Part shown: positions 1-15,585 of the stretch, piece after piece
Position numbering within the stretch: position 1 is the stretch's first letter
Layout: the number at the start of each line of letters is the position of its first letter
DNA from: Cyanobacterium sp. HL-69
Lineage (GTDB): Bacteria > Cyanobacteriota > Cyanobacteriia > Cyanobacteriales > Cyanobacteriaceae
Direction of reading: 5' to 3'
Length of the DNA: 64,000 bases
Assembly (NCBI GenBank): GCA_002813895.1
Contig: CP024912.1
Location: 992,001 to 1,056,000, forward strand
Position numbers and translations under genes: made by a program
The notes under the pieces: generated by a model
Databases searched by the model: none
The model's input: the letters and a program-made list of their open reading frames with translations, nothing else
Told to the model about the DNA's origin: nothing

Positions 1-1
1 A

Positions 2-832
2 CAAATCAGCTTACAGTTAGGTTTTACTTGTCATTTACGCAGTCGCCCTAGTGAGGGTGGTGTGGTAGAACGTCCTTTTAAAACCTTGAACACGGAGGTA
101 TTTTCTACTTTACCAGGATATACAGGTGGTAATGTTCAAGAACGTCCAGAGGATGCGGAAAAGGAAGCCTGTTTAACGTTGAAAGATTTGGAGAAACTAA
201 TTGTCCGCTACATTGTGGATAACTACAATCAACGTCTTGATGCTCGTATGGGAGAACAAACTCGTTTTGTGCGTTGGGAAGCTGGATTACTTTCTGTGCC
301 ACATATTCTTTCTGAACGAGAGTTAGATATTTGCTTAATGAAACAGTCACGGAGAAGAGTGCAAAAGGGTGGTCATCTCCAATTTGAAAATCTGATTTAT
401 AAGGGAGAATATCTCGCAGGTTATGAAGGAGAAACTATCATCATTCGCTATGACCCTAGGGATATTACAAGCATTTTAGTATATCGTCGTGAGAATAATA
501 AAGAGGTTTTCCTGACTCGTGCCTATGCGGTGGATTTAGAGTGTGAGTCTTTATCCTTGATCGATGCGAAAGCTAGTGCTAAAAGAGTAAGAAATGCTGG
601 AAGAAGTTTGAGTAATCGTAGCATTTTGATGGAGGTAGAGGAACGCTCGAACTTTACAGTGAAGAAAACGAAAAAACAACGACAGAAAGAGGAACAAGAA
701 CGAGTCAAGCCTTCCATACCTTCCCCTGTCTTGAAAACAACGGAACTAGAAGATGAGCCTTCTGGTTTTTCTGATGATCATTGGGTGGAGGTTGTTGACT
801 ATGAAGAACTACAAGAAGATTTCGATTTTTAG
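2..832 (+). CDS. tnsB: TnsB transposase, C-terminal part (5' end outside window)
   Basis: This is the DDE transposase that binds the transposon ends and joins them to the target; V-K CASTs lack TnsA and so form cointegrates (known of the family). The frame is open from base 2, giving 276 visible residues. GGVVERPF near the visible start carries the likely third catalytic glutamate of the DDE triad. A basic linker follows, then an acidic/aromatic tail (residues WVEVVDYEEL) of the kind that contacts the TnsC filament. The stop lies 9 bp before tnsC, so the genes are probably co-transcribed. The N-terminal DNA-binding domains and the first two catalytic Asp are outside the window. Confidence 0.93.
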   Translation, partial: QISLQLGFTCHLRSRPSEGGVVERPFKTLNTEVFSTLPGYTGGNVQERPEDAEKEACLTLKDLEKLIVRYIVDNYNQRLDARMGEQTRFVRWEAGLLSVPHILSERELDICLMKQSRRRVQKGGHLQFENLIYKGEYLAGYEGETIIIRYDPRDITSILVYRRENNKEVFLTRAYAVDLECESLSLIDAKASAKRVRNAGRSLSNRSILMEVEERSNFTVKKTKKQRQKEEQERVKPSIPSPVLKTTELEDEPSGFSDDHWVEVVDYEELQEDFDF

Positions 833-841
833 GGGTTAGCC

Positions 842-1669
842 ATGAAAGCGGAAAATGTAGCAGAACAATTGGGTAAGATTGATGTCCCTGAAGCAAATCT
901 ACAGGAGGAGATCAAAAGATTAGAGGGTAAAACGGTGGTAAGTTTAGAGCAAGTTGCGATACTTCATGAATGGTTGGAAAGTAAGCGTCAATCGAAACAG
1001 TCTTGTCGAGTGGTGGGGGAATCTCGTACGGGGAAAACTATTGCGTGTAATTCTTATCGTTTGAGACATAAGCCAATTCAAGAGAAGGGTAAACCTCCTC
1101 AAGTTCCAGTAATTTATTTACAAGTACCCCAAGAATGTGGAGCAAAAGATTTATTTCAAGGAATTATTGAACACCTCAAGTATCAGATGACTAAGGGTAC
1201 GGTAGCTGAAATCAGAAAAAGGGCGATGACAGTATTGCAAGGATGTGGTGTAGAGATGATCATTTTTGATGAGGCAGATCGCTGTAAACCAAAGACTTTT
1301 GCCGAAATTCGGGATATTTTTGATCATCTCAATATTGCGATTGTTCTTGTGGGTACAGATCGTTTGGATGCGGTAGTAAAGAAGGATGAGCAAGTTTATA
1401 ATCGTTTTCGGGCTTGTTATCGGTTTGGTAAGTTAGGGGGAGAAGAATTTAGTCGTACTGTCAACATTTGGGAGAAACAGGTGTTGAAGCTACCTGTGGC
1501 TTCTAATTTAACGAATAAAAGGATGTTGAAATTGATTGGGGAGGCGACTCAGGGTTACATCGGGATTATGGATATGGTTTTGCGTGATGCTGCAATTCGT
1601 TCTCTGAAGAAGGGACTTAACAAGATTGATTATGACACTTTAAAGGAAGTTGTACAGGAGTATAAATAA
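842..1669 (+). CDS. tnsC: TnsC AAA+ ATPase of the CAST
   Basis: This AAA+ regulator polymerises on target DNA and links the Cas12k-TniQ target complex to TnsB. It has 275 residues, close to the family size. Walker A GESRTGKT is at residues 59-66 and Walker B IIFDEAD at 140-146; a sensor-type VLVGTDR follows about 30 residues later. The start follows tnsB by 9 bp, and the TAA stop shares its last base with the tniQ ATG, which implies translational coupling. No damage is seen. Confidence 0.95.
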   Translation: MKAENVAEQLGKIDVPEANLQEEIKRLEGKTVVSLEQVAILHEWLESKRQSKQSCRVVGESRTGKTIACNSYRLRHKPIQEKGKPPQVPVIYLQVPQECGAKDLFQGIIEHLKYQMTKGTVAEIRKRAMTVLQGCGVEMIIFDEADRCKPKTFAEIRDIFDHLNIAIVLVGTDRLDAVVKKDEQVYNRFRACYRFGKLGGEEFSRTVNIWEKQVLKLPVASNLTNKRMLKLIGEATQGYIGIMDMVLRDAAIRSLKKGLNKIDYDTLKEVVQEYK

Positions 1670-2139
1670 TGGAAATTGAGCCTTGGTGGTTTACCGTAAC
1701 ACCTTACGAGGGTGAAAGCATCAGTCATTTTTTAGGTCGTTTTCGACGGGAGAATGTGCTTACTGTTTCTGGTTTGGGCAAGATAACTGGACTCTACGGG
1801 GCGATCGCCCGTTGGGAGAAGTTTCGTTTTAATCCTCCTCCTTCCCTTGAACAATTGGAGAAGTTAAGTGCGATCGTACAAGTGGAGGTAGCAACCTTAC
1901 AAACGATGTTTCCTTCTGCCCCTATGAAAATGACTCCTATTCGTCTTTGTTCGGTTTGTTATGGTGAAAAGCCTTATCATCGCATGAAATGGCAGTATAA
2001 GGAGATTTATAAGTGCGAAAGGCATCAAGTAAAACTGTTATCGGAATGCCCTAATTGTGGGGCAAGATTCAAGTTTCCTGCTTTATGGGTTGATGCTTGG
2101 TGTCATCGGTGTTTTACCCCTTTTGCTGACTACACATAA
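1669..2139 (+). CDS. tniQ: TniQ target-selection adaptor
   Basis: This is a small TniQ of 156 residues, the short form typical of V-K CASTs, which caps the TnsC filament and contacts the Cas12k R-loop. The N-terminal WWFTVTPYEGES motif is the usual TniQ start. The C-terminal half has two zinc-knuckle sets: C94, C97, C116, H119 and C127, C130, C145, C148. It overlaps tnsC by 1 bp. The stop lies only 6 bp from the convergent end of the cargo nuclease gene, so core and cargo transcripts run into each other. Confidence 0.93.
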   Translation: MEIEPWWFTVTPYEGESISHFLGRFRRENVLTVSGLGKITGLYGAIARWEKFRFNPPPSLEQLEKLSAIVQVEVATLQTMFPSAPMKMTPIRLCSVCYGEKPYHRMKWQYKEIYKCERHQVKLLSECPNCGARFKFPALWVDAWCHRCFTPFADYT

Positions 2140-2145
2140 AAATAA

Positions 2146-3498
2146 CTATCCTGAAAAGTTTCTAGCAAATTTTGTTAAAATTCTTTGGCTAGGATGTGCA
2201 GAAAGACTCACTAATTTATTAACTAAAGCTACAGGGAATAAAGCAGAATCATACATATCACAATGTAACTTCTCGACATTATCAAGTATTATTTGTAAAT
2301 TAGGTAAATTATTAATGGTTGGATTTTTCTTAAGTTCTCTAACAGGTACTGCAACAACATACATTTGTCCATTTCTCGTTTTAAAAATAACTTTATGTCC
2401 ATAATTGCTAGTAGAAGCATAAGGACGATTAGGATCACCTGTTCCTGATAAAATACAGCGATAAATATAATCATCGCTCAAAATGAGTGCTTTTCCAAGT
2501 TCTAATTTGTTTTGTATATCTTGAGCGTGATCAACAAAAGCACCACTTTTTTCTAATCCAGCTAATAAAATATTTTGTTTATCAAAAAGCCAGTTTACTA
2601 AATCCTGCATTGCAACATGAAGTTGTGCAGTTTGTCCAAAAAAGCCAGTTGAACCATCTTTAATAAATAAAACTTTTTTAAGCATTTGTGGTTGTTTATT
2701 ATATAATAATCGAATCAAATGAATAATAATTAAATGTTCAATTACATTAAGTAAATAACCTAAAATACCTGCTGCTCCTGTTTCTTCGTCAATAACTTCA
2801 TGAAGACGAAAAATATCAGTTAAATAAATTTTCCCGCCAGTTTCAGGACAATTAAAAGTATAATCTCTATTCATTTTATCTTCTGACAAAAGAATTGGAT
2901 TACCTTCTAAAGTTAATGGATTTGTTGCCAGGTTATAAGATTTGTCGTTTTCTGTTCTTTGTCCTTGCTTATATTTACGAAACACAAACCATGCTAAGGT
3001 ATCTATTAAACTTTTATCTTCATCTAAATTATTGTTAAGGAAAAATTCATAAATTGCTTTTAATACAGTACCTTTTAAGGTCTGACTATCTTTAAAGCAT
3101 AAATTACGAGTAGGTAAAGCTAATTTTAAACGTTGTATATTTTTTAATTTAGCCATATCTTTAGGATCAATAAAAGCTGATGCGTCAATTTCTGCTAAAT
3201 CATCTAATTTAAAAAATAATGCTCCAAACTGCAAAAAATGAATAGTTCGTGAAGGAAAGTCTTTATTTAAAACTACTTCTGTATAACCTCCATCTACAGC
3301 AATAATAGCTTCTACAGGATTATTTTCAGGAGGTTCAAAATCTTTTATCAATTCTTCAATAGAAACTCCATCAACTTGAAGTGGTTTTTCCATTCTTTCC
3401 ATAACTGCTTTAACTTCAGGATCATTGATAATGTGATGATGTGAAGCTTTACTAGCACTTTCAAAAGGACGGCGGTTATTTTTACTTGTATATCCCAT
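2146..3498 (-). CDS. nurA: NurA-family nuclease (CAST cargo)
   Basis: This 450-residue protein carries a NurA domain. IIAVDGG (catalytic Asp about residue 69) and LFIKDGS (280-283) are the metal-binding blocks of this RNase H-like nuclease family. NurA works with the hexameric pump HerA in DNA end resection in archaea; bacterial HerA-nuclease pairs are often antiphage systems. It is the last gene of a minus-strand operon, methyltransferase-herA-nurA, with 22 bp to herA. Codon use is AT-rich, like the rest of the cargo. Assignment to the family is good; a role in defence is inferred from context. Confidence 0.85.
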   Translation of the reverse strand: MGYTSKNNRRPFESASKASHHHIINDPEVKAVMERMEKPLQVDGVSIEELIKDFEPPENNPVEAIIAVDGGYTEVVLNKDFPSRTIHFLQFGALFFKLDDLAEIDASAFIDPKDMAKLKNIQRLKLALPTRNLCFKDSQTLKGTVLKAIYEFFLNNNLDEDKSLIDTLAWFVFRKYKQGQRTENDKSYNLATNPLTLEGNPILLSEDKMNRDYTFNCPETGGKIYLTDIFRLHEVIDEETGAAGILGYLLNVIEHLIIIHLIRLLYNKQPQMLKKVLFIKDGSTGFFGQTAQLHVAMQDLVNWLFDKQNILLAGLEKSGAFVDHAQDIQNKLELGKALILSDDYIYRCILSGTGDPNRPYASTSNYGHKVIFKTRNGQMYVVAVPVRELKKNPTINNLPNLQIILDNVEKLHCDMYDSALFPVALVNKLVSLSAHPSQRILTKFARNFSG

Positions 3499-3520
3499 AA
3501 TATTTGACCTTAATAAAATT

Positions 3521-5557
3521 TTATTTTTCTGGAGGAAAGCGATCTATTTGAACAGGAATAACAAAAGGGTTGCTGTAAGTTTTCATACGTACAAAACCTT
3601 TATCTGTATCTTGACTAAAGCGAATTAAGCTTTCGGTAAAGTCACTAAAATCATAATATTTTCTCAATTCTCTAATTTCATCTTCATTGTTCAAATGAGA
3701 TATAAACCAGTTTTGAGTAGATTTTAAAATGTTGCTACTAATAGAGCTTACTTCTTGAGTTGCATAGATTAAACCGAGATTTAATTTAGCTCCTTCTTTA
3801 GCCAATCTATTGTAAATCTGAGATAAATCTTTATCATCTTTTTTAGGGAAAAGATTATGTGCTTCTTCAAAATAAAATTGAATAAAATTGTTAGGACGAG
3901 TGCTAGTAAAACGACTGATCGCATCGGTAAAAATTCTTTGACATATTCTTTCACTAAACATTGATTGTATTTCTGCATTGCCAAGCGAAAGATCAACAAT
4001 AACAATTTTACCTTGTCTTAAATTGTTTAAAATATCTTGATCAAATGGTTCTTGTTTAGTGCTAGTATGTTGTTCTTTAACTGGATTAAAGATACGAAAT
4101 CCTGCACAAAGAGAACTTTTACCAGAATTTGTTTTACGAGTTAACATAACCAACAAAGCTTTTAAATCTTCATCTGCCCATTCTTTTCCATCATGACTTT
4201 GCCTATACTTAGAAAACGTATTATTGGGATCTTCAGCATAAATGTCCCATAAAATTTCCCACCAGTTAGCCGCTTCTTCTAAAGTTAATCCTGAAGAAGG
4301 ATTAATATTTGGATTTACGTCATTACGAACATCTTGATTGGCTGAAAATTTCACTCTAAAGTTACTGTTGTTATTTGTAACTTTAAAACCAGCTTTATAG
4401 AGACAGCATAAATACACAGCAACTTTTCTATCATAACGAGCTTGTGCTGAATGATTTGTTTGATAATCTTCAGGTTTACTTAAATCTACTGATTTAAAAT
4501 TCATTGCAAATCTTGTTGTATCTTCCGCAATCGTAGGATAGCTTTTAATTAATTCAAAACCATTTTCAATTTCTTCATAGAAATTAACTTTCATTTCCCT
4601 AAAACCTTCTTTGGGAACTGTGGAATACCTAACAGTTTGTTCTTGGTATAAATCAAAAATTGCTGTACCTTGATCTTGAAGATTAGGGTTAGCATACTCT
4701 CCATTAATATCAAAAATAATTTGCCCAATTGGATATTTAGGATTATTATCTTCTGTTAAAGGTTTAAGCACTTCTTCTGGTGTTTCTTCACTTTTATCTA
4801 ACTCAAGAGGTGCATTATTGCTCATCTCCACACAAGCTTGAATTATCTTTTTAACTGTGTTGGATTTACCTGTTCTTGTCATACCAAAAAGAGCCGTTCT
4901 TTTTCCAGCAAAATCAGGTGCTTGGACATAAACAATAACATCTTTTTCTAGTTGCTGAAAACGGCGACTAGAACTATAACGAACTTTCCCAATTTTTATA
5001 TCTCCAGAACCTCCTGGTGTTCCATTTTCTCTGTAATTAACAATACCTTTTAAAATATCCGCTGAAGGTTTGATAACGGAGTAATTATGAGAGCTATAAA
5101 AATTTTCTAAATCAGCACCAAAACGAGTTTTTCCATTCTCATCAATATAAAAAGAACCTAATATTGAACACTCTAACCCACTAAAAGAAAACTCATAACG
5201 AGTAAAAGTATCTAGCTGACTTTTTTTGGTTTCTCCAGTTTGAATATCATCTTTGTAATATTCAACCATACTACTAATAACCTCTTGATCTGTTGGTAAT
5301 CTTGTTGGTTGAATAACTCTGAGTAATATTGCTTCACAATCATTTTTTTGATCAAGTTCATTATCGTAATAAGCTAATAAAAAACACCCTTGAGGAATAC
5401 CTTTAGCTTGTTGTTTCCAAGCATCAGCTACTAAAATTTCTGCTTTGGTATAACTCAGTCGAAAAGGACGACCAACAAATGTACCTGTTTCCCAGTCGCT
5501 AGTAGATTTATTACGTTTAAAAAGATCAATCTTAATTAAATCATTAGTAATTCCCAT
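3521..5557 (-). CDS. herA: HerA-type DNA-translocating ATPase (CAST cargo)
   Basis: This 678-residue member of the FtsK/HerA ATPase superfamily has a beta-barrel-like N-terminal region followed by Walker A GMTRTGKS at 225-232 and the HerA signature FDINGEY at 282-288. Walker B FIQFYFEEAH is at 558-567 and the polar motif YATQEVSSI at 598-606. HerA forms a hexameric ring that feeds DNA to NurA, encoded 22 bp downstream. The gene begins 20 bp after the methyltransferase stop, so the three form one operon. An insert between the ATPase motifs makes it longer than archaeal HerA (about 500 residues). Confidence 0.88.
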   Translation of the reverse strand: MGITNDLIKIDLFKRNKSTSDWETGTFVGRPFRLSYTKAEILVADAWKQQAKGIPQGCFLLAYYDNELDQKNDCEAILLRVIQPTRLPTDQEVISSMVEYYKDDIQTGETKKSQLDTFTRYEFSFSGLECSILGSFYIDENGKTRFGADLENFYSSHNYSVIKPSADILKGIVNYRENGTPGGSGDIKIGKVRYSSSRRFQQLEKDVIVYVQAPDFAGKRTALFGMTRTGKSNTVKKIIQACVEMSNNAPLELDKSEETPEEVLKPLTEDNNPKYPIGQIIFDINGEYANPNLQDQGTAIFDLYQEQTVRYSTVPKEGFREMKVNFYEEIENGFELIKSYPTIAEDTTRFAMNFKSVDLSKPEDYQTNHSAQARYDRKVAVYLCCLYKAGFKVTNNNSNFRVKFSANQDVRNDVNPNINPSSGLTLEEAANWWEILWDIYAEDPNNTFSKYRQSHDGKEWADEDLKALLVMLTRKTNSGKSSLCAGFRIFNPVKEQHTSTKQEPFDQDILNNLRQGKIVIVDLSLGNAEIQSMFSERICQRIFTDAISRFTSTRPNNFIQFYFEEAHNLFPKKDDKDLSQIYNRLAKEGAKLNLGLIYATQEVSSISSNILKSTQNWFISHLNNEDEIRELRKYYDFSDFTESLIRFSQDTDKGFVRMKTYSNPFVIPVQIDRFPPEK

Positions 5558-5577
5558 TTTTGCAAATCTCCAAAATG

Positions 5578-6549
5578 CTATTTAGATGTTTTTGTTGTTT
5601 TTAAGGCAGGATCTTCAAACCTAATTTTTGACTGTTCTACATATTTTTCCTCAGCATCTATAGCTAACCATTTACGATCTAATCTCGCAGCGGCGTATCC
5701 AGTTGTATTGCTTCCTGCAAAAGGATCTAATACCCAGTCCCCTGGCTCTGTTAAAAATTCGATAAAAAAAGCAGGTAATCCCATTGGCATTCGTGCTGGA
5801 TGAGGAATAATATTTCTTTCTTTACAAGTTTTTGCAAAGAAATCTCTGGAATTACTATTTGAAAAAGAAAAAGCATTTGGTAAACGTACTTTGCGATTAG
5901 AATCCATTGCTTCTAATTCTAATAAATTATGGGCAATCGATCCGCCACAATCTTTTAGAAAGCTAGTTTCTCCTATTTTATGTTCAGAAGGTCTTTTCCC
6001 TGAATTATAGTTTCCTGTTTTCAGAAGATATTTCATACGATCACTATAAGGACGTAGAACTCTAGAATTATCAGCTTTCGGATTATCTGTTTTAGAGATC
6101 CACCATAAACGGGTATAGCTATCAACTGTTCTAATACGTTCAACCGTTACCCAATTGGCTGGAGAAGGTAAGCGAGAAGGATTGTAACAGACAAACTCCT
6201 GAATCAGACGCAAATCAGCATCAGGATGAGAAACAAAACCCATAAAAGATTGCAATGGTAATAAAGATTGAACTGGGCGTTGTGATTCCCAACTATTACC
6301 TAATTCAATAACGATAGAACCATTTTCTGTCAACATTTCCGAAAAAAGTGGGGCTAAAGCACTAAACCATTTTAAATATTCATCACCAAGCATATTCCCA
6401 TAGCTTTTTTTACTATTTAATGGAAAAGGAGGAGATGTAAAAATTAATTGTATTTTTCCTTTTAATCTGCGAAAAGACCTACTATTAAGGATGGTTTCCG
6501 CTTTTCCAACATAATAACGTCCAGTTTTTTTCTTTTGAACAATTGTCAC
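5578..6549 (-). CDS. Beta-class DNA methyltransferase (N4-cytosine or N6-adenine), CAST cargo
   Basis: This is a 323-residue site-specific DNA amino-methyltransferase. The catalytic motif IV TSPPF (38-42) precedes the SAM-binding motif DPFAGSNTTG (275-284); this order defines the beta class. The usual DPFxGSGTT has Asn in place of the second Gly here. S/TPP(Y/F) fits N4-cytosine or beta-class N6-adenine enzymes, and the target base cannot be told from sequence. It is first in the methyltransferase-herA-nurA operon, 45 bp after the CvkR-type gene. The context suggests it marks self DNA against the HerA-NurA machine (inference). Confidence 0.87.
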   Translation of the reverse strand: MTIVQKKKTGRYYVGKAETILNSRSFRRLKGKIQLIFTSPPFPLNSKKSYGNMLGDEYLKWFSALAPLFSEMLTENGSIVIELGNSWESQRPVQSLLPLQSFMGFVSHPDADLRLIQEFVCYNPSRLPSPANWVTVERIRTVDSYTRLWWISKTDNPKADNSRVLRPYSDRMKYLLKTGNYNSGKRPSEHKIGETSFLKDCGGSIAHNLLELEAMDSNRKVRLPNAFSFSNSNSRDFFAKTCKERNIIPHPARMPMGLPAFFIEFLTEPGDWVLDPFAGSNTTGYAAARLDRKWLAIDAEEKYVEQSKIRFEDPALKTTKTSK

Positions 6550-6594
6550 AAAGTTTAAATTTAAAAATATTTAACATATCCTATACATTTTATT

Positions 6595-7020
6595 CTAATA
6601 AAGGGAGTATTCTTGAATATTTTGATGAATAGTTTGAATCCATAAGGGAATAATTCCCCTTCCCCGCTCCAGAAGGGCGATCGCCCCTTCCTGTTCATAA
6701 GGCAATAAATCAACAGTACCATCACCAGCTACTACCATAAAACGCTTTTTACAACCACTATCAGTAAAATCAGGCTCTTTTGCCCTCAAATCATTGAGGA
6801 TTTTTTGCACCATCTCCAGATTTAGCCCCACAGAAAGGAGATATACCATTACTGATACCTCCACCAACTCCACAGAAGAATAGTAGATTGTTTTTCCCGT
6901 ACCCGAAGCACCAATAAAAGGTACAACAACTTCCTTATCCCTCCAATACTGTAATTGTCGGAGCGAACACCCTGTAATCTTTGATATATCTTTGCTACTA
7001 AAAAATACTTCCTGTTTCAT
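6595..7020 (-). CDS. cvkR: MerR-type repressor of the V-K CAST (CvkR-like)
   Basis: This 141-residue protein has an N-terminal MerR-like winged helix (SSKDISKITGCSLRQLQYWRD, with DIS/LRQLQYW the typical recognition part) and a short C-terminal dimer/effector region. Genes of this type sit divergently beside cas12k in V-K CASTs; the characterised one, CvkR, represses cas12k and the tracrRNA. Here it reads away from cas12k across a 65-bp gap. The cargo operon follows on the same strand after 45 bp, so readthrough from the cvkR promoter could drive the cargo. Confidence 0.85.
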   Translation of the reverse strand: MKQEVFFSSKDISKITGCSLRQLQYWRDKEVVVPFIGASGTGKTIYYSSVELVEVSVMVYLLSVGLNLEMVQKILNDLRAKEPDFTDSGCKKRFMVVAGDGTVDLLPYEQEGAIALLERGRGIIPLWIQTIHQNIQEYSLY

Positions 7021-7085
7021 AGCAACAATTATAAAATGATTTGTTATTATACAAATATGTTTTATTAAACATTATTGTCGATGCT
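7021..7085. promoter_or_regulatory. cvkR/cas12k divergent promoter region with candidate operator
   Basis: This 65-bp AT-rich gap separates the cvkR and cas12k starts. It contains an imperfect dyad around TATACAAATATGTTTTA (about 7049-7065), near where promoters for both genes must lie. CvkR-type repressors bind a short palindrome in this gap (family knowledge). Half-sites ACA and TGT are visible, but the dyad is not perfect, so the exact operator is unproven. Confidence 0.45.
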
Positions 7086-8969
7086 ATGAGTCTAATCACT
7101 ATTCAATGTCGTTTGGTTGCTTCTGCTGATACCCGTCAATTTCTTTGGATGTTGATGAGTCAGAAAAATACTCCTTTGATCAATGAAATCTTCATGAGAA
7201 TAGCAGAACATCCCGATTTTTCTGTGTGGAAAGAAAAGGGAAAACTGCCCAAAAATTTTCTTGCTCAACAAATTGCTGAACTAAAGGAAGATAAACGTTT
7301 TCAAGGACAACCATCTCGTTTTTACGCTTCTGTCCATAAGATGATTGACTATGTTTATGAGTCTTGGTTTACGATACAAGATAAAAATAAATTCAGACTT
7401 CAAGGACATACTCGCTGGTTAGAAATGTTGAAACCTGATACCGAAATTCTCCAGTGTTTTGATGGTTCTTGGGAAAAGTTACAAAATCAAGCCAAAAAGA
7501 TTCTCGATGAGATTGATAGCACTCTTTCTCACACGCGTATTGTTGATAAGTTATTTAAGGAGTATGAAGCAACTAACGATCCTCGGATTCAAGGGGCGAT
7601 CGTTTATCTAATCAAAAATGGTGCTAGTATCCCAGACAATAAAGTAGAAACTGAAAAAAAATACAAGAAACTCAAACGGAAAGTAGAGATTCAGGTTCAT
7701 AAACTAAAAAAACAAATAGAAATTTCTGCTCCCACTGGCAGAGACTTAAATCAGCAAAAGTGGTTAGATACTCTCATTCTTGCTTCTCTTGCTTCTACTA
7801 CGATGCCCCTCAATCAAGCTCAGTGCGATCGTTGGTTTTCCGCTCTGAAAAAAAATTCCCCTTCTATTCCTTATCCTGTCATTTATGAAACCAATGAAGA
7901 TTTGAAATGGAGTCTAAGTGATCAAAACCGCCTCCATGTTCGATTTAATGGTTTAAGTGACCATACTTTTAAAATTTATTGTGATTCTCGTCAACTTCCT
8001 TATTTTCAGCGCTTCTACGAAGATCAAGAATTGAAAAAGGCGAACAAAAATCAATTTTCTAGTGCTTTATTCACTCTGCGTTCAGCGATGATTATTTGGA
8101 AAGAAGATGACGGAAAAGGGGAGTTATGGGATAAACATAAACTTTATTTACACTGTACTTTAGACACCGACTATTGGACTGTTGAAGGTACACAAGTAGT
8201 TGCTCAAAGAAAGCAAAAGGAAGTTTTAAATATTATTGACGGGATGAAAGAAAAAGATGATTTAAGGGATACTCAAAAAAAATTTATCCAACGCAAAGAA
8301 ACAACTCTTGCCCGACTTAATAATATTTTCCCTCGCCCCGGTAAACCTATTTATCAGGGTAATCCGAATCTTTTTCTTGGAGTCGCTATGGGGTTACAAG
8401 AATCTGTTACCCTTGCTCTTGTTAACGTTGGTGAAGGGAAAGCAATTTTATACCGTAACATTAAACAATTGTTGGGAGATAACTATCATCTACTAAGAAG
8501 AAGAAGAAATGAAAAGCAAAAATTGAATCACCAGAACCATAAAGCAAGGAAAAGAGCTAGTTTTCAACAGAAAGGGGAATCTAATTTGGGGGAATACGTT
8601 GATCGTCTCATTGCTAAATCTATTCTCAAAATAGCTCAAGAATATAAAGTTTCAACAATCATCATTCCTCTATTAAGCCAGATGCGATCAATTACTGAAG
8701 CAGAAGTACAAGCTAGGGCTGAGGAGCGAATACCTGAGTATAAAGAAGGGCAAAAAAAATATGCCAAAGATTACCGTGTACAAGTCCATCAGTGGAGCTA
8801 TGGTCGATTAATTGATAATATTAAGGCTAATTCCGCCAAGGTAGGTATTGTCGTAAGAGAGGGCAAACAGCCTAAACAGGGAACATTTACTGATAAAGCA
8901 CTACAGTTAGCTTTGAGTATCCAACAGAATATTACTGAGGGTAAAATTCCCCGAAACACAAAATTTTGA
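7086..8969 (+). CDS. cas12k: Cas12k, nuclease-inactive CRISPR effector of the CAST
   Basis: This is the RNA-guided DNA-binding protein that selects the CAST insertion site. It is 627 residues from the ATG at 7086, close to the roughly 640 of known Cas12k. An upstream in-frame ATG at 7041 would add 15 residues, but family members begin at MSxITIQ, which matches 7086. Conserved blocks are visible: GQPSRFY, ETNEDLKWS, RFNGLSD, IKQLLGDNYHLL and VHQWSYGRLI. In the RuvC-like block LGVAMGLQE the usual catalytic Asp is absent, as is normal for this dead nuclease. The tracrRNA begins a few bases after the stop. Confidence 0.96.
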   Translation: MSLITIQCRLVASADTRQFLWMLMSQKNTPLINEIFMRIAEHPDFSVWKEKGKLPKNFLAQQIAELKEDKRFQGQPSRFYASVHKMIDYVYESWFTIQDKNKFRLQGHTRWLEMLKPDTEILQCFDGSWEKLQNQAKKILDEIDSTLSHTRIVDKLFKEYEATNDPRIQGAIVYLIKNGASIPDNKVETEKKYKKLKRKVEIQVHKLKKQIEISAPTGRDLNQQKWLDTLILASLASTTMPLNQAQCDRWFSALKKNSPSIPYPVIYETNEDLKWSLSDQNRLHVRFNGLSDHTFKIYCDSRQLPYFQRFYEDQELKKANKNQFSSALFTLRSAMIIWKEDDGKGELWDKHKLYLHCTLDTDYWTVEGTQVVAQRKQKEVLNIIDGMKEKDDLRDTQKKFIQRKETTLARLNNIFPRPGKPIYQGNPNLFLGVAMGLQESVTLALVNVGEGKAILYRNIKQLLGDNYHLLRRRRNEKQKLNHQNHKARKRASFQQKGESNLGEYVDRLIAKSILKIAQEYKVSTIIIPLLSQMRSITEAEVQARAEERIPEYKEGQKKYAKDYRVQVHQWSYGRLIDNIKANSAKVGIVVREGKQPKQGTFTDKALQLALSIQQNITEGKIPRNTKF

Positions 8970-8983
8970 GCTAGAATAAATCA

Positions 8984-9229
8984 AATCGTGCCGTAAATCA
9001 AGTTTTTATCGACCTCTGTTTTGCGAAAATTTGGAGTAGTTTACTTTTAGTTAAAAGTTTGCTTTCTGCTCCTGCTAACTGATTGTCCCGATGCTGTCTA
9101 TCTTCGGATAGAGAAAATAAGAGCACTCTCAGCAACAAGGATGCAGGTATCCTGTTCCAGCGGTTAGCAAATCACTTCCGAGCAAGGATGAGTTCTTTTA
9201 GAGAATTGAAAGCGAGTCTCGCCATCTGC
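8984..9229 (+). ncRNA. tracrRNA fused to a homing crRNA: putative natural single-guide RNA
   Basis: The region after cas12k aligns by eye with the V-K tracrRNA, for example TTGCTTTCTG (9059-9068), GATGCTGTCTATC and AGCGGTTAGCAAATCAC. A -10-like TAGAAT lies at 8972-8977. The anti-repeat AGTTCT (9191-9196), a 5-nt loop and AGAATT (9202-9207) form a 6-bp stem with one G-T pair, followed by GAAAG and a 17-nt guide. The internal CTTTC can also pair with GAAAG, as in known Cas12k guide RNA. There is no room for a separate array, so tracrRNA and crRNA would be one molecule of about 246 nt. The exact 5' end is inferred. Confidence 0.8.
9201..9229 (+). CRISPR. Delocalised half-repeat and 17-nt homing spacer against tRNA-Leu
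   Basis: GAGAATTGAAAG (9201-9212) is the 3' half of a V-K direct repeat; a full-length repeat is not present. The next 17 nt, CGAGTCTCGCCATCTGC (9213-9229), match the 3' part of the tRNA-Leu gene at 9352-9368 (minus strand) at 16 of 17 positions; the mismatch is at spacer position 15. Short delocalised spacers of this kind drive homing of V-K CASTs to tRNA genes (family knowledge). Confidence 0.9.
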
Positions 9230-9317
9230 TTAAGTGACATTAATCTGTTGTCACGTCATTTATTTTGTTAAGACGACACTAATGTGTTACCGATGACAAA
9301 TAATTTGTTAATGTACA
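9230..9317. repeat. CAST terminal region with TnsB-binding repeats (cas12k-side end)
   Basis: Reading inward from 9317 on the minus strand, the end starts TGTACA. It then shows repeated blocks of the form ACAAATTATTTGTCATC, ACACATTAGTGTCGTC and ACAGATTAATGTCAC, the pattern of TnsB sites in V-K ends. The block CAAATTATTTGTCATCGGT is shared with the orphan end at 57.9 kb. Candidate target duplication ACCAG follows at 9318-9322. Confidence 0.88.
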
Positions 9318-9350
9318 ACCAGATTATAAAAACCATTGGTAGTTTATTTA

Positions 9351-9432
9351 TGCGGATGGCGAGACTCGAACTCGCAAGGCCGAAGCCACACGCCCCTCAA
9401 GCGTGCGCGTATACCAATTCCGCCACATCCGC
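9351..9432 (-). tRNA. tRNA-Leu(GAG)
   Basis: This is an 82-nt class II-type tRNA on the minus strand. Acceptor GCGGATG pairs with CATCCGC. The anticodon stem CACGC/GCGTG encloses TTGAGGG, giving anticodon GAG. A variable arm is present, and the T-arm is GCGAG-TTCGAGT-CTCGC. The gene is intact; the CAST inserted 28 bp beyond its 3' end. CCA is not encoded. Confidence 0.95.
9352..9371 (-). other. Protospacer and GTT PAM for the CAST homing guide
   Basis: On the minus strand GTT (9371-9369) precedes CGAGTCTCGCCATCCGC (9368-9352), inside the T-arm and acceptor stem of tRNA-Leu. GTN is the PAM of characterised Cas12k proteins. The transposon begins 51 bp from the PAM, counting the 5-bp duplication, within the spacing known for V-K CASTs. 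Confidence 0.88.
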
Positions 9433-9503
9433 AGGATACAATAACATATTATAGCATATCTGCTTTAAAAAATCCAGACAAATCTCTCATAACAAAAATA
9501 TAT

Positions 9504-13419: not shown

Positions 13420-15585
13420 TTATCCATTTTGTGCCATATCCATCAAAATTTGATGGGTACTATGTTCAATTTCTCCTTCTTTGGGGCGACGTTGAATATA
13501 ACTGCCATCGGTTTGTAATTCCCAACTTTGGCGATTATCCGAAAGCATAAGCCCTAATAATTCCTCCAATTGTTTCATCAATTTTGGTTCCTCAACAGGA
13601 GTAATAGCCTCTACTCTCCGAGATAAATTTCTGGTCATCCAATCGGCACTACCGATATAGATTTCCTCCTCACCGTTGTTATGGAAATAAAAGATACGAG
13701 AGTGTTCTAAAAATCGACCGATAATACTAATAACCTTAATATTTTCGCTCACCCCTTCCATACCTGGCCGTAAACAACAAATGCCCCGAATAATCAAATC
13801 TATTTTTACCCCCGCTTGGGAAGCCCGATAAAGCGCCTCGATAACAGCTACATCCACTAAAGAATTCATCTTTGCCACAATTCTACCAGTGCCACCATCA
13901 CGACAATGATTTGCTTCCCTTTCAATCATGGCAATCATGCGATCGCGCATAGTCACAGGAGCAACTAGCAACTTACGGAAAGCCTTTTGCTTAGAATAAC
14001 CTGTCAAATAGTTAAACAAATCAGTCAAATCAGCACCCAAATCTTCTCGACAGGTAAACAAACCAATGTCAGTATAGAGTTTTGCCGTTTTTGGATTATA
14101 ATTGCCCGTGCCAATGTGAACATAACGACGAATTTTATCCTCATCTTTGCGCACCACCAGCACAATCTTAGTATGGGTTTTTAAACCTACTAACCCATAA
14201 ACCACATGGACACCAGCCTTCTCCAACTTCCTTGCCCAGAGAATATTATTTTCCTCATCAAAACGAGCCTTTAACTCCACCAAAGCCACTACCTGTTTAC
14301 CATTTTCCGCCGCCTCAATGAGAGCCTTAATGATAGGAGAATCCCCCGAAGTACGATAAAGAGTCATCTTAATGGCCATCACATCTGGATCATGGGCTGA
14401 CTGGGTAATAAACTCCTGCACTGTGGAAGAAAAAGAATGATAAGGGTGATGTACCATCAAATCGGACTTGCGAATCATGGCAAAAAATTCAGGGCTGATA
14501 TGCTCATCTCTATCATCGTCTTGATCTAAAAGTAACTCTTGGAAATGATCAAACGGAGGGGGTACTACAGCACTCCAGCGATTATCTTTTAATTCTGGTA
14601 AAGGAAACCCCGTGAGGGCAAACAAATCATTTAAACCCAATAAACCTTCAATTTCATACACATCAATGGGCTGTAAATTTAGCCCCTGCATCAGCATTTT
14701 TTTGATGTTACTAGGCATGGAAGCATGAACTTCTAACCTAACGGGAGAACCTGCAAAACGTCTTTTTCTCAACTCCTGTTGAATGGCCAACAATAAATCA
14801 TCGGCTTCATCTTCCTGTACTCCCAAGTCCGCATCACGGGTAAGACGGAAATTATGGTACTCTTGCACATCCATCCCCGGGAAAAGGGATTCTAAATTAT
14901 GGGCAATTACCTGTTCTAGGGGTACACCTACCCAAAGTAAGTCCTGATGATTTTCTTCTCCCACTTGTCTCAGGTGTTCAGGGAAAGCAACAAAACGGGG
15001 TAAGGATTTAGGTACTTTTACCCTAGCAAACAATTGTGCCCCTGTGTCAGGATTTCTAACTAATACGGCCAAGTTTAAACTCAGGTTAGAAATATGGGGA
15101 AAAGGGTGACTAGGATCAACGGCGAGTGGGGTAAGAACGGGAAATATGTTACTTTCGTAGTAGTCGTGTAAGTATTTTCTTTGTTCTTGGTTGAGATCGA
15201 CGAAATTTATTAGGTGAATGCCATGGTGGACTAATTCTTTTTTTAAATTGTATTCAAAATTGGCTACCTGTTCTTGTACTACGGGACGCAAATATTTTTG
15301 GATATTCTCCATTTGTTCGATGGGAGTGGAGCCGTCAAAGGTTTTTTTGGTTACTTCCGCTTCTATTTGTCGTTTGATAGCTGCAACCCTAACCATGAAA
15401 AATTCATCTAAGTTGGAACTGAAAATGGCGGTGAATTTTAGTCTTTCTAGTAATAAAGTTCTTTCGTCTAGGGCTTCGTGTAGCACTCTGCGGTTAAATT
15501 CTAGCCAACTTAGTTCTCTATTGAAATAGTATTTACTATCTCTAAGATCGATTTTTGTCTCTCTCATGGTTTCTGTTTCTGTCAT
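13420..15585 (-). CDS. ppk1: Polyphosphate kinase PPK1
   Basis: This enzyme transfers the ATP gamma-phosphate to long-chain polyphosphate. Its 721 residues match PPK1 length. FNRELSWLEFNRRVL near the N-terminus is the N-domain start, and MKMTLYRTSGDSP lies in the core. The phosphorylated His is in VHIGTGNYNPKTAKLYTD, and a second catalytic His region follows in SADWMTRNLSRRVE. Convergent with psbU, sharing its terminator region. A second in-frame ATG six residues downstream (MRETKID) could also be the start. Confidence 0.96.
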   Translation of the reverse strand: MTETETMRETKIDLRDSKYYFNRELSWLEFNRRVLHEALDERTLLLERLKFTAIFSSNLDEFFMVRVAAIKRQIEAEVTKKTFDGSTPIEQMENIQKYLRPVVQEQVANFEYNLKKELVHHGIHLINFVDLNQEQRKYLHDYYESNIFPVLTPLAVDPSHPFPHISNLSLNLAVLVRNPDTGAQLFARVKVPKSLPRFVAFPEHLRQVGEENHQDLLWVGVPLEQVIAHNLESLFPGMDVQEYHNFRLTRDADLGVQEDEADDLLLAIQQELRKRRFAGSPVRLEVHASMPSNIKKMLMQGLNLQPIDVYEIEGLLGLNDLFALTGFPLPELKDNRWSAVVPPPFDHFQELLLDQDDDRDEHISPEFFAMIRKSDLMVHHPYHSFSSTVQEFITQSAHDPDVMAIKMTLYRTSGDSPIIKALIEAAENGKQVVALVELKARFDEENNILWARKLEKAGVHVVYGLVGLKTHTKIVLVVRKDEDKIRRYVHIGTGNYNPKTAKLYTDIGLFTCREDLGADLTDLFNYLTGYSKQKAFRKLLVAPVTMRDRMIAMIEREANHCRDGGTGRIVAKMNSLVDVAVIEALYRASQAGVKIDLIIRGICCLRPGMEGVSENIKVISIIGRFLEHSRIFYFHNNGEEEIYIGSADWMTRNLSRRVEAITPVEEPKLMKQLEELLGLMLSDNRQSWELQTDGSYIQRRPKEGEIEHSTHQILMDMAQNG

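Follow-up and report, generated by a model that had tools for sequence, protein, structure and literature searches.

The operon and its carrier

The window analysed here is a stretch of 64,000 nucleotides from the genome of Cyanobacterium sp. HL-69, in which three ORFs on the minus strand, all three intact in the ORF list of the window, encode a HerA-type ATPase and a NurA-type nuclease preceded, in the order of transcription, by a DNA methyltransferase (Table 1). The tight spacing that an earlier note on this DNA had described is confirmed by the ORF coordinates, with gaps of 22 nt between the NurA and HerA genes and 20 nt between the HerA and methyltransferase genes, and the trio lies 45 nt downstream of a MerR-type regulator beside cas12k, in the same direction. 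On its other side it borders on tniQ, and the element around these genes is a type V-K CAST, a CRISPR-guided transposon. Carriage by such an element had been claimed before and is borne out by TnsB, TnsC, TniQ, a MerR regulator in the position of CvkR, Cas12k, TGTACA ends and a guide-like sequence directed at a tRNA-Leu gene; this guide-like 21-mer is 90% identical to its match in the tRNA-Leu gene, with a GTT PAM in the minus-strand reading. The other TGTACA end of the element is found at about C1:990919, and no target-site duplication was found around the element, the flanks being TGGGG and ACCAG.

Table 1. Features of the CAST and its cargo, in positions of the window
Feature	Position	Strand	Basis or remark
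tnsB, 3′ part; gene start upstream of the window	1–832	+	Mu-transpos_C; full ORF in L089
tnsC	842–1669	+	TniB; PADLOC TnsC_0_V-K
tniQ	1669–2139	+	PF06527
Exchangeable CAST cargo slot, only the trio inside	2130–6615	.	Homology of the two CAST copies ends at 2129 and resumes at 6616
NurA/TdpB-type RNase H-fold nuclease	2146–3498	-	450 aa; AF2 model; TdpB 8wfd_G; PF09376 in relatives
HerA/FtsK-type DNA-translocating ATPase, TdpA the closest solved relative	3521–5557	-	678 aa; PF01935; TdpA 8wet
M.PvuII-like DNA methyltransferase with motifs in beta order (N4-cytosine predicted)	5578–6549	-	323 aa, GTG start; PF01555; PADLOC MTase_II PDLC03323 E 6.5e-77; M.PvuII 1boo E 3.7e-62
MerR-type regulator, CvkR position	6595–7020	-	PF13411
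cas12k	7041–8969	+	NF038191 E 4.5e-248
Guide-like sequence matching the tRNA-Leu gene at 9348–9368	9213–9233	+	Inverted repeat I12
Right transposon end, TGTACA	9312–9317	-	Element-end search
tRNA-Leu(gag), attachment target	9350–9433	-	tRNA call

A sister CAST with different cargo

A second CAST copy, with a Cas12k protein identical to that of the window copy, lies elsewhere in this genome (C1:1520229-1531297, L109). When the two copies are aligned, their DNA is 97.7% identical up to window position 2129 and 97.1% identical from 6616 on, and the cargo slots in between share no sequence; the sole non-homologous stretch among the transposition genes, about 2130 to 6615, is the trio, so that the earlier view of the three genes as the whole cargo stands. 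In the sister CAST the slot contains a BpuJI-type restriction endonuclease (PF11564, E 5.5e-90) between two probable C5-cytosine methylases, a label assigned to these flanking proteins by eye from sequence. The place of the trio is, in other words, otherwise filled by ordinary restriction-modification.

The two copies stand in opposite orientation about 0.5 Mb apart. An usher-like gene is split between them, one half forming the left flank of the window CAST and the other the right flank of the second: joined (L089 15880-15925; L109 reverse complement near 13767) and with one TGGGG removed, these halves yield an usher-like reading frame that stays open for at least 841 codons. Because the left end of one copy pairs with the right end of the other in this interrupted gene, the window CAST is a recombinant of the two copies, and therefore the trio and the restriction-modification cargo may have been exchanged between the elements. 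Sister CASTs with swapped cargo offer a natural experiment on the exchange of defence modules by CRISPR-guided transposons. In both copies the 5′ end of tnsB is broken by one and the same short insert, repeat-like and containing a stop (L089 16155-16290), which leaves an ORF of 535 aa, and because of this interruption the function of the TnsB transposase may be altered. Further remnants of CAST ends are scattered over the same genome (C1:2196000-2200000, 2214000-2219000, 2580000-2584500 and 1866000-1870000), among them a partial cas12k that is 82% identical (C1:2198105-2198557).

The ATPase and the nuclease

The second gene had been called HerA from its sequence, an assignment upheld by PF01935 (E 4.5e-13) and a Walker A motif, GMTRTGKSNT. 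Its best PDB match is TdpA (8wet; E 1.5e-20 by phmmer, 4.7e-21 with a profile), whereas the next families follow at 1e-10 or worse and archaeal HerA at about 1e-6; the likeness to TdpA is remote and concerns chiefly the C-terminal ATPase part. TdpA belongs to TdpABC, reportedly a system in which a TdpAB translocase-nuclease is linked to phosphorothioation, and said to have been described by An et al. in Nat Chem Biol in 2025. The fold model of HerA was poor (pLDDT 55, from a 12-row alignment) and was left out of the fold search, so that statements on its assembly rest on homology.

For the third gene the window sequence alone is silent: the protein had no Pfam, PADLOC or PDB sequence match and its NCBIfam matches were not meaningful, while a profile of the NurA proteins gave only chance matches among PDB sequences. 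The earlier label NurA was nonetheless recovered by way of its relatives, 20 of 56 close ones matching PF09376 (NurA), and by an AlphaFold (AF2) model of pLDDT 85, whose strong matches are only to NurA/TdpB nucleases. The model matches TdpB (8wfd_G) with a Z score of 17.9 over 306 residues, followed by the NurA proteins of S. solfataricus, T. maritima, Deinococcus, P. furiosus and T. kodakarensis with Z scores of 10.9-7.8, and by the next unrelated folds at 6.7. All 56 relatives share residues D69, D228, E254, E316, H324 and Y416, and 54 of them also have D281; a double CxxC insert resembling a zinc ribbon occurs in 22/56 and is absent from the closest cyanobacterial ones. Judged by these sequence and model comparisons, the HerA-NurA pair is nearer to TdpAB than to the HerA-NurA of repair.

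The methyltransferase

The first gene, taken earlier for a beta-class methyltransferase, proved to be one, with a PF01555 match (E 1.1e-28) and motif IV (TSPPF) preceding motif I (DPFAGSNTTG), which is the beta order. Homology to M.PvuII extends over residues 9-318 and includes the target-recognition region; within the matching region lies the stretch RPSxHxIG..KDxGGSI, which is conserved among 63 homologues from many phyla, mostly 55-63% identical to the window protein. M.PvuII yields CAG-N4mC-TG, and the enzyme of the trio is predicted to be an M.PvuII-like methyltransferase of the N4-cytosine type. As for avoidance of this predicted site, the hexamer CAGCTG stands at 0.66 near the trio (rank 8 of 64) and at 0.86 elsewhere (rank 34), a mild depletion that is confounded by taxonomy and too weak to speak for the site.

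An orphan methyltransferase of the PvuII type was also considered as a partner acting in trans, as it is present in 9 of 10 checked genomes that have HerA-NurA but no adjacent methyltransferase. Orphan M.PvuII-like genes are common in the Nostoc family as a whole (115/193 genomes, about 60%; L134-L140), and within this family 13/16 HerA-NurA genomes without an adjacent methyltransferase have one vs 102/177 of the other genomes (p 0.053). The frequency is not clearly above the family baseline, and the orphan was dropped as support. In two loci (L016 and L017) HerA-NurA adjoins a close relative of the Nostoc-family orphan.

Recurrence of the three genes

The earlier note had proposed a neighbourhood search for the trio outside CASTs, with a lack of recurrence counting against its reading. 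A first search of genome contigs with NurA as the query gave no match, but a scan with a HerA alignment did find relatives, 351 in number, and the neighbourhoods of the best 80 were read: the tight operon recurs. These 80 loci come from Cyanobacteria, Bacteroidota, Bacillota, Pseudomonadota, Chloroflexota, Patescibacteria, Methanosarcina and others. NurA lies directly downstream of HerA in 78/80 and at most three genes away in 79/80, the one HerA relative without it (L014) ending at a contig edge. A PvuII-type methyltransferase lies upstream on the same strand in 62/80 and a methyltransferase of permuted motif order takes the upstream place in 4/80; in another 4/80 a PvuII-like gene is present but differs in position or strand (that of L084 being a short fragment at a contig edge), and 10/80 have neither type. 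Of these ten, L009, L010 and L012 carry instead a cassette of UvrD-nuclease, N6-N4 methylase and ResIII (identified by Pfam in L009), L070 has a Dam-type gene instead of the PvuII-type methyltransferase, L029 is cut by a contig edge, and in 5/80 no methyltransferase stands beside HerA. Conversely, of 1430 ORFs, the 64 that score above 200 bits as PvuII-type genes all belong to HerA-NurA operons, and the genes of the trio in relatives commonly overlap start to stop by 4 bp.

Distances between proteins correlate strongly for HerA and NurA (Mantel r 0.88) and less for the methyltransferase and HerA (0.50; p 0.001, n=59), a tight link in the former case and a looser one, still beyond chance, in the latter, which fits an effector pair whose modification gene is inherited along with it and yet can be exchanged. 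In the HerA tree the phyla are intermingled, as they should be if a defence unit has been transferred; on this tree the PvuII-type label has to change 10 times, and well-supported branches force five or more of these changes. The looser correlation of the methyltransferase could also be expected if an orphan methyltransferase merely stood beside an autonomous HerA-NurA nuclease, two unrelated functions, and three Nostocales plasmids do carry HTH-HerA-NurA without a methyltransferase. We regard this as the least probable of the explanations considered, given that the order is fixed and the genes are close or overlapping in 62 of the best 80 of 351 loci, across phyla, and that other methyltransferases substitute in the same position.

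The carriers are varied. In Anoxybacillus caldiproteolyticus (L041 1-12388) the genes for TnsB, TnsC, TnsD and TnsE precede those for a methyltransferase of the permuted class, HerA and NurA, and this Tn7-type element is an independent carrier of a variant trio. A Deferribacter megaplasmid has methyltransferase-HerA-NurA with herA split by a TnpB/IS200-type (IS605-type) element (L006 5126-8924), the archaeon Halorarius has the order HerA-NurA-methyltransferase, and a Vibrio phage has HerA-NurA with a Dam-type methyltransferase on the opposite strand. None of the best 80 of 351 HerA relatives is surrounded by a V-K CAST, and the CAST carriage is therefore incidental to what the system is. Restriction-modification systems stabilise their carriers, and the trio might likewise be mainly an addiction or competition module that retains its transposon or plasmid, with phage defence secondary, as its presence on a CAST, a Tn7-like element, plasmids and temperate Vibrio phages would suit. 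This we hold to be rather improbable, since the contigs of most relatives carry no transposon genes of such families; moreover, the molecular mechanism would be the same as that of a defence resembling restriction-modification and differ only in the beneficiary. That the cargo pays for the upkeep of the transposon, as had been proposed, is a guess.

Other genes with a likely part in defence, DndC and NsnB among them, adjoin relatives of the trio. In Virgibacillus (L037) a 471-aa protein, with an N-terminal sequence type as in the BpuJI-type enzyme and classed by PADLOC as a type II restriction enzyme, is encoded together with two methylase-like ORFs (the one tested being MTase_II) directly upstream of the trio. 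A DndC gene lies divergently beside the trio in a Xenococcaceae MAG (L022 1-820). In several Bacteroidota (L056, L058, L066, L069, L074, L083 and L088) the operon extends past NurA with genes of about 700-790 aa and 300 aa, which in L066 encode an SMC/AAA_21-HNH protein and an HNH protein; these extra genes are possibly accessory effectors.

Within cyanobacteria the distribution is patchy, with clear NurA relatives in 2/373 genomes, that of the window and one other. Scans of IMG/VR with HerA, NurA and the NurA of the Vibrio phage returned no relative, which, short patterns having been used, is weak evidence of absence. Such a patchy and mobile distribution speaks against a role in DNA-end processing, in which HerA-NurA would be a repair or resection complex as in archaea and the methyltransferase a bystander or a strand marker for repair. 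It is from resection that HerA-NurA is best known, and the complexes of Sulfolobus and Deinococcus have been studied in this light (PMC9960219, PMC4351679). For the trio, this role seems quite unlikely: the nearest structures are those of TdpA and TdpB and not of repair HerA/NurA, a methyltransferase lies directly upstream in most relatives, and no mre11 or rad50 is among the window ORFs of the first 15.6 kb (1-15.6 kb). Even for T. kodakarensis, a 2026 study argues against direct end resection by HerA-NurA and suggests defence, possibly antiviral (PMC12977600).

A proposed mechanism

The trio is, in our judgement, quite probably a compact three-gene defence resembling restriction-modification, which would mark self DNA and degrade DNA that lacks the mark. 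Of the earlier reading to this effect, the unit itself has gained from the recurrence, the M.PvuII relative, the likeness to TdpAB, the intact catalytic motifs and the restriction-modification cargo in the sister slot, whereas its carriage by a CAST is, with a count of 0/80, incidental. The M.PvuII-like enzyme would methylate cytosine at N4 within one fixed short sequence, CAGCTG or something close to it being the likeliest, and so mark the host DNA. By homology, a hexameric ring of HerA would pump double-stranded DNA into a NurA dimer, which would cut the DNA fed to it. The mark would stop this machine from loading on host DNA or from being activated by it, and unmarked incoming DNA, including that of phages, would be degraded. 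The overall build would be that of TdpABC, with base methylation replacing phosphorothioation. Counting against this reading are the 10/80 loci with neither a PvuII-type nor a permuted methyltransferase beside HerA, the weak avoidance of CAGCTG, and the looser co-variation between methyltransferase and HerA. A promoter scan of the operon stayed at shuffle level.

Which component reads the site is a closer question. We lean slightly to the effector, HerA-NurA, as the reader of one fixed site, because the target-recognition region of the methyltransferase is conserved across phyla, as in type II systems. The methyltransferase is suggested as the reader, on the other hand, because HerA and NurA lack a class-specific segment within cyanobacteria: the two proteins are 68-98% identical there, though the adjacent modification module varies, and no segment stands out among the cyanobacterial relatives as changing with the methyltransferase class. 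These observations, along with the pairing of the HerA-NurA core with several classes of methyltransferase, would agree with an arrangement resembling BREX, in which HerA-NurA is blind to sequence and a complexed methyltransferase marks, senses unmarked sites and switches the nuclease on. We consider such an arrangement possible but doubtful, as the conserved target-recognition region is unlike the diversifying specificity of BREX and type I systems, and as several loci have no adjacent methyltransferase. In a wider reading, the trio may represent a widespread kind of restriction-modification that has as yet no name: methylation would license DNA against a pumping nuclease of the TdpAB type, a single recognition site would be common to bacteria and archaea, and the class of methyltransferase would be swapped on a constant HerA-NurA core; this we put forward tentatively, as slightly short of an even chance.

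Comparison with known systems

None of the curated Pfam, NCBIfam and PADLOC models names the trio, and no published description of it was found in the openly readable literature. If the proposal is true, the 2023 PADLOC models tested lack a compact three-gene defence that is spread over many phyla, and one branch of HerA-NurA, a complex long treated as repair machinery, serves in defence and is coupled to DNA methylation. Two analyses of defence centred on HerA leave NurA unmentioned (PMC10853773, PMC12839542). The systems treated there under "HerA/FtsK capture", like DndFGH and BREX, share with the trio a HerA/FtsK ATPase and a nuclease, in some cases with DNA modification, but differ from it in that the cargo has no DndF/G, PglZ or BrxC. 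In Sir2-HerA and HerA-DUF4297 the HerA ring likewise serves as the platform of an antiphage enzyme, whereas in the trio HerA is partnered by a nuclease of the NurA/TdpB kind, with a methyltransferase in addition. Canonical HerA-NurA of archaea and Deinococcus is a two-gene unit of ATPase and nuclease with the NurA fold, but the pair of the trio is linked to a methyltransferase rather than to Mre11/Rad50, and is structurally nearer to TdpAB. With the PvuII type II restriction-modification system the trio has in common a methyltransferase homologous over its whole length to M.PvuII; in the slot, however, an ATP-driven translocase-nuclease takes the place of a PvuII-type or other cognate endonuclease.

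The closest parallel is TdpABC, which resembles the trio in having the ATPase closest to it (TdpA), the closest nuclease fold (TdpB) and a DNA-modification gene, all in one short operon. The differences are that the trio has no TdpC and that its modification gene is instead a PF01555 base methyltransferase, the slot holding only the three genes, and that its nuclease is about 90 residues longer, with the zinc-ribbon-like insert in some relatives. On these comparisons the trio would work like TdpABC and, because TdpC is absent, would not be TdpABC itself. If so, TdpABC joins a broader class in which the mark, be it phosphorothioate, m4C or another methylation, is swappable and the pumping nuclease constant, and the swappable mark opens a direct way into the question of how nucleases of this kind recognise one.
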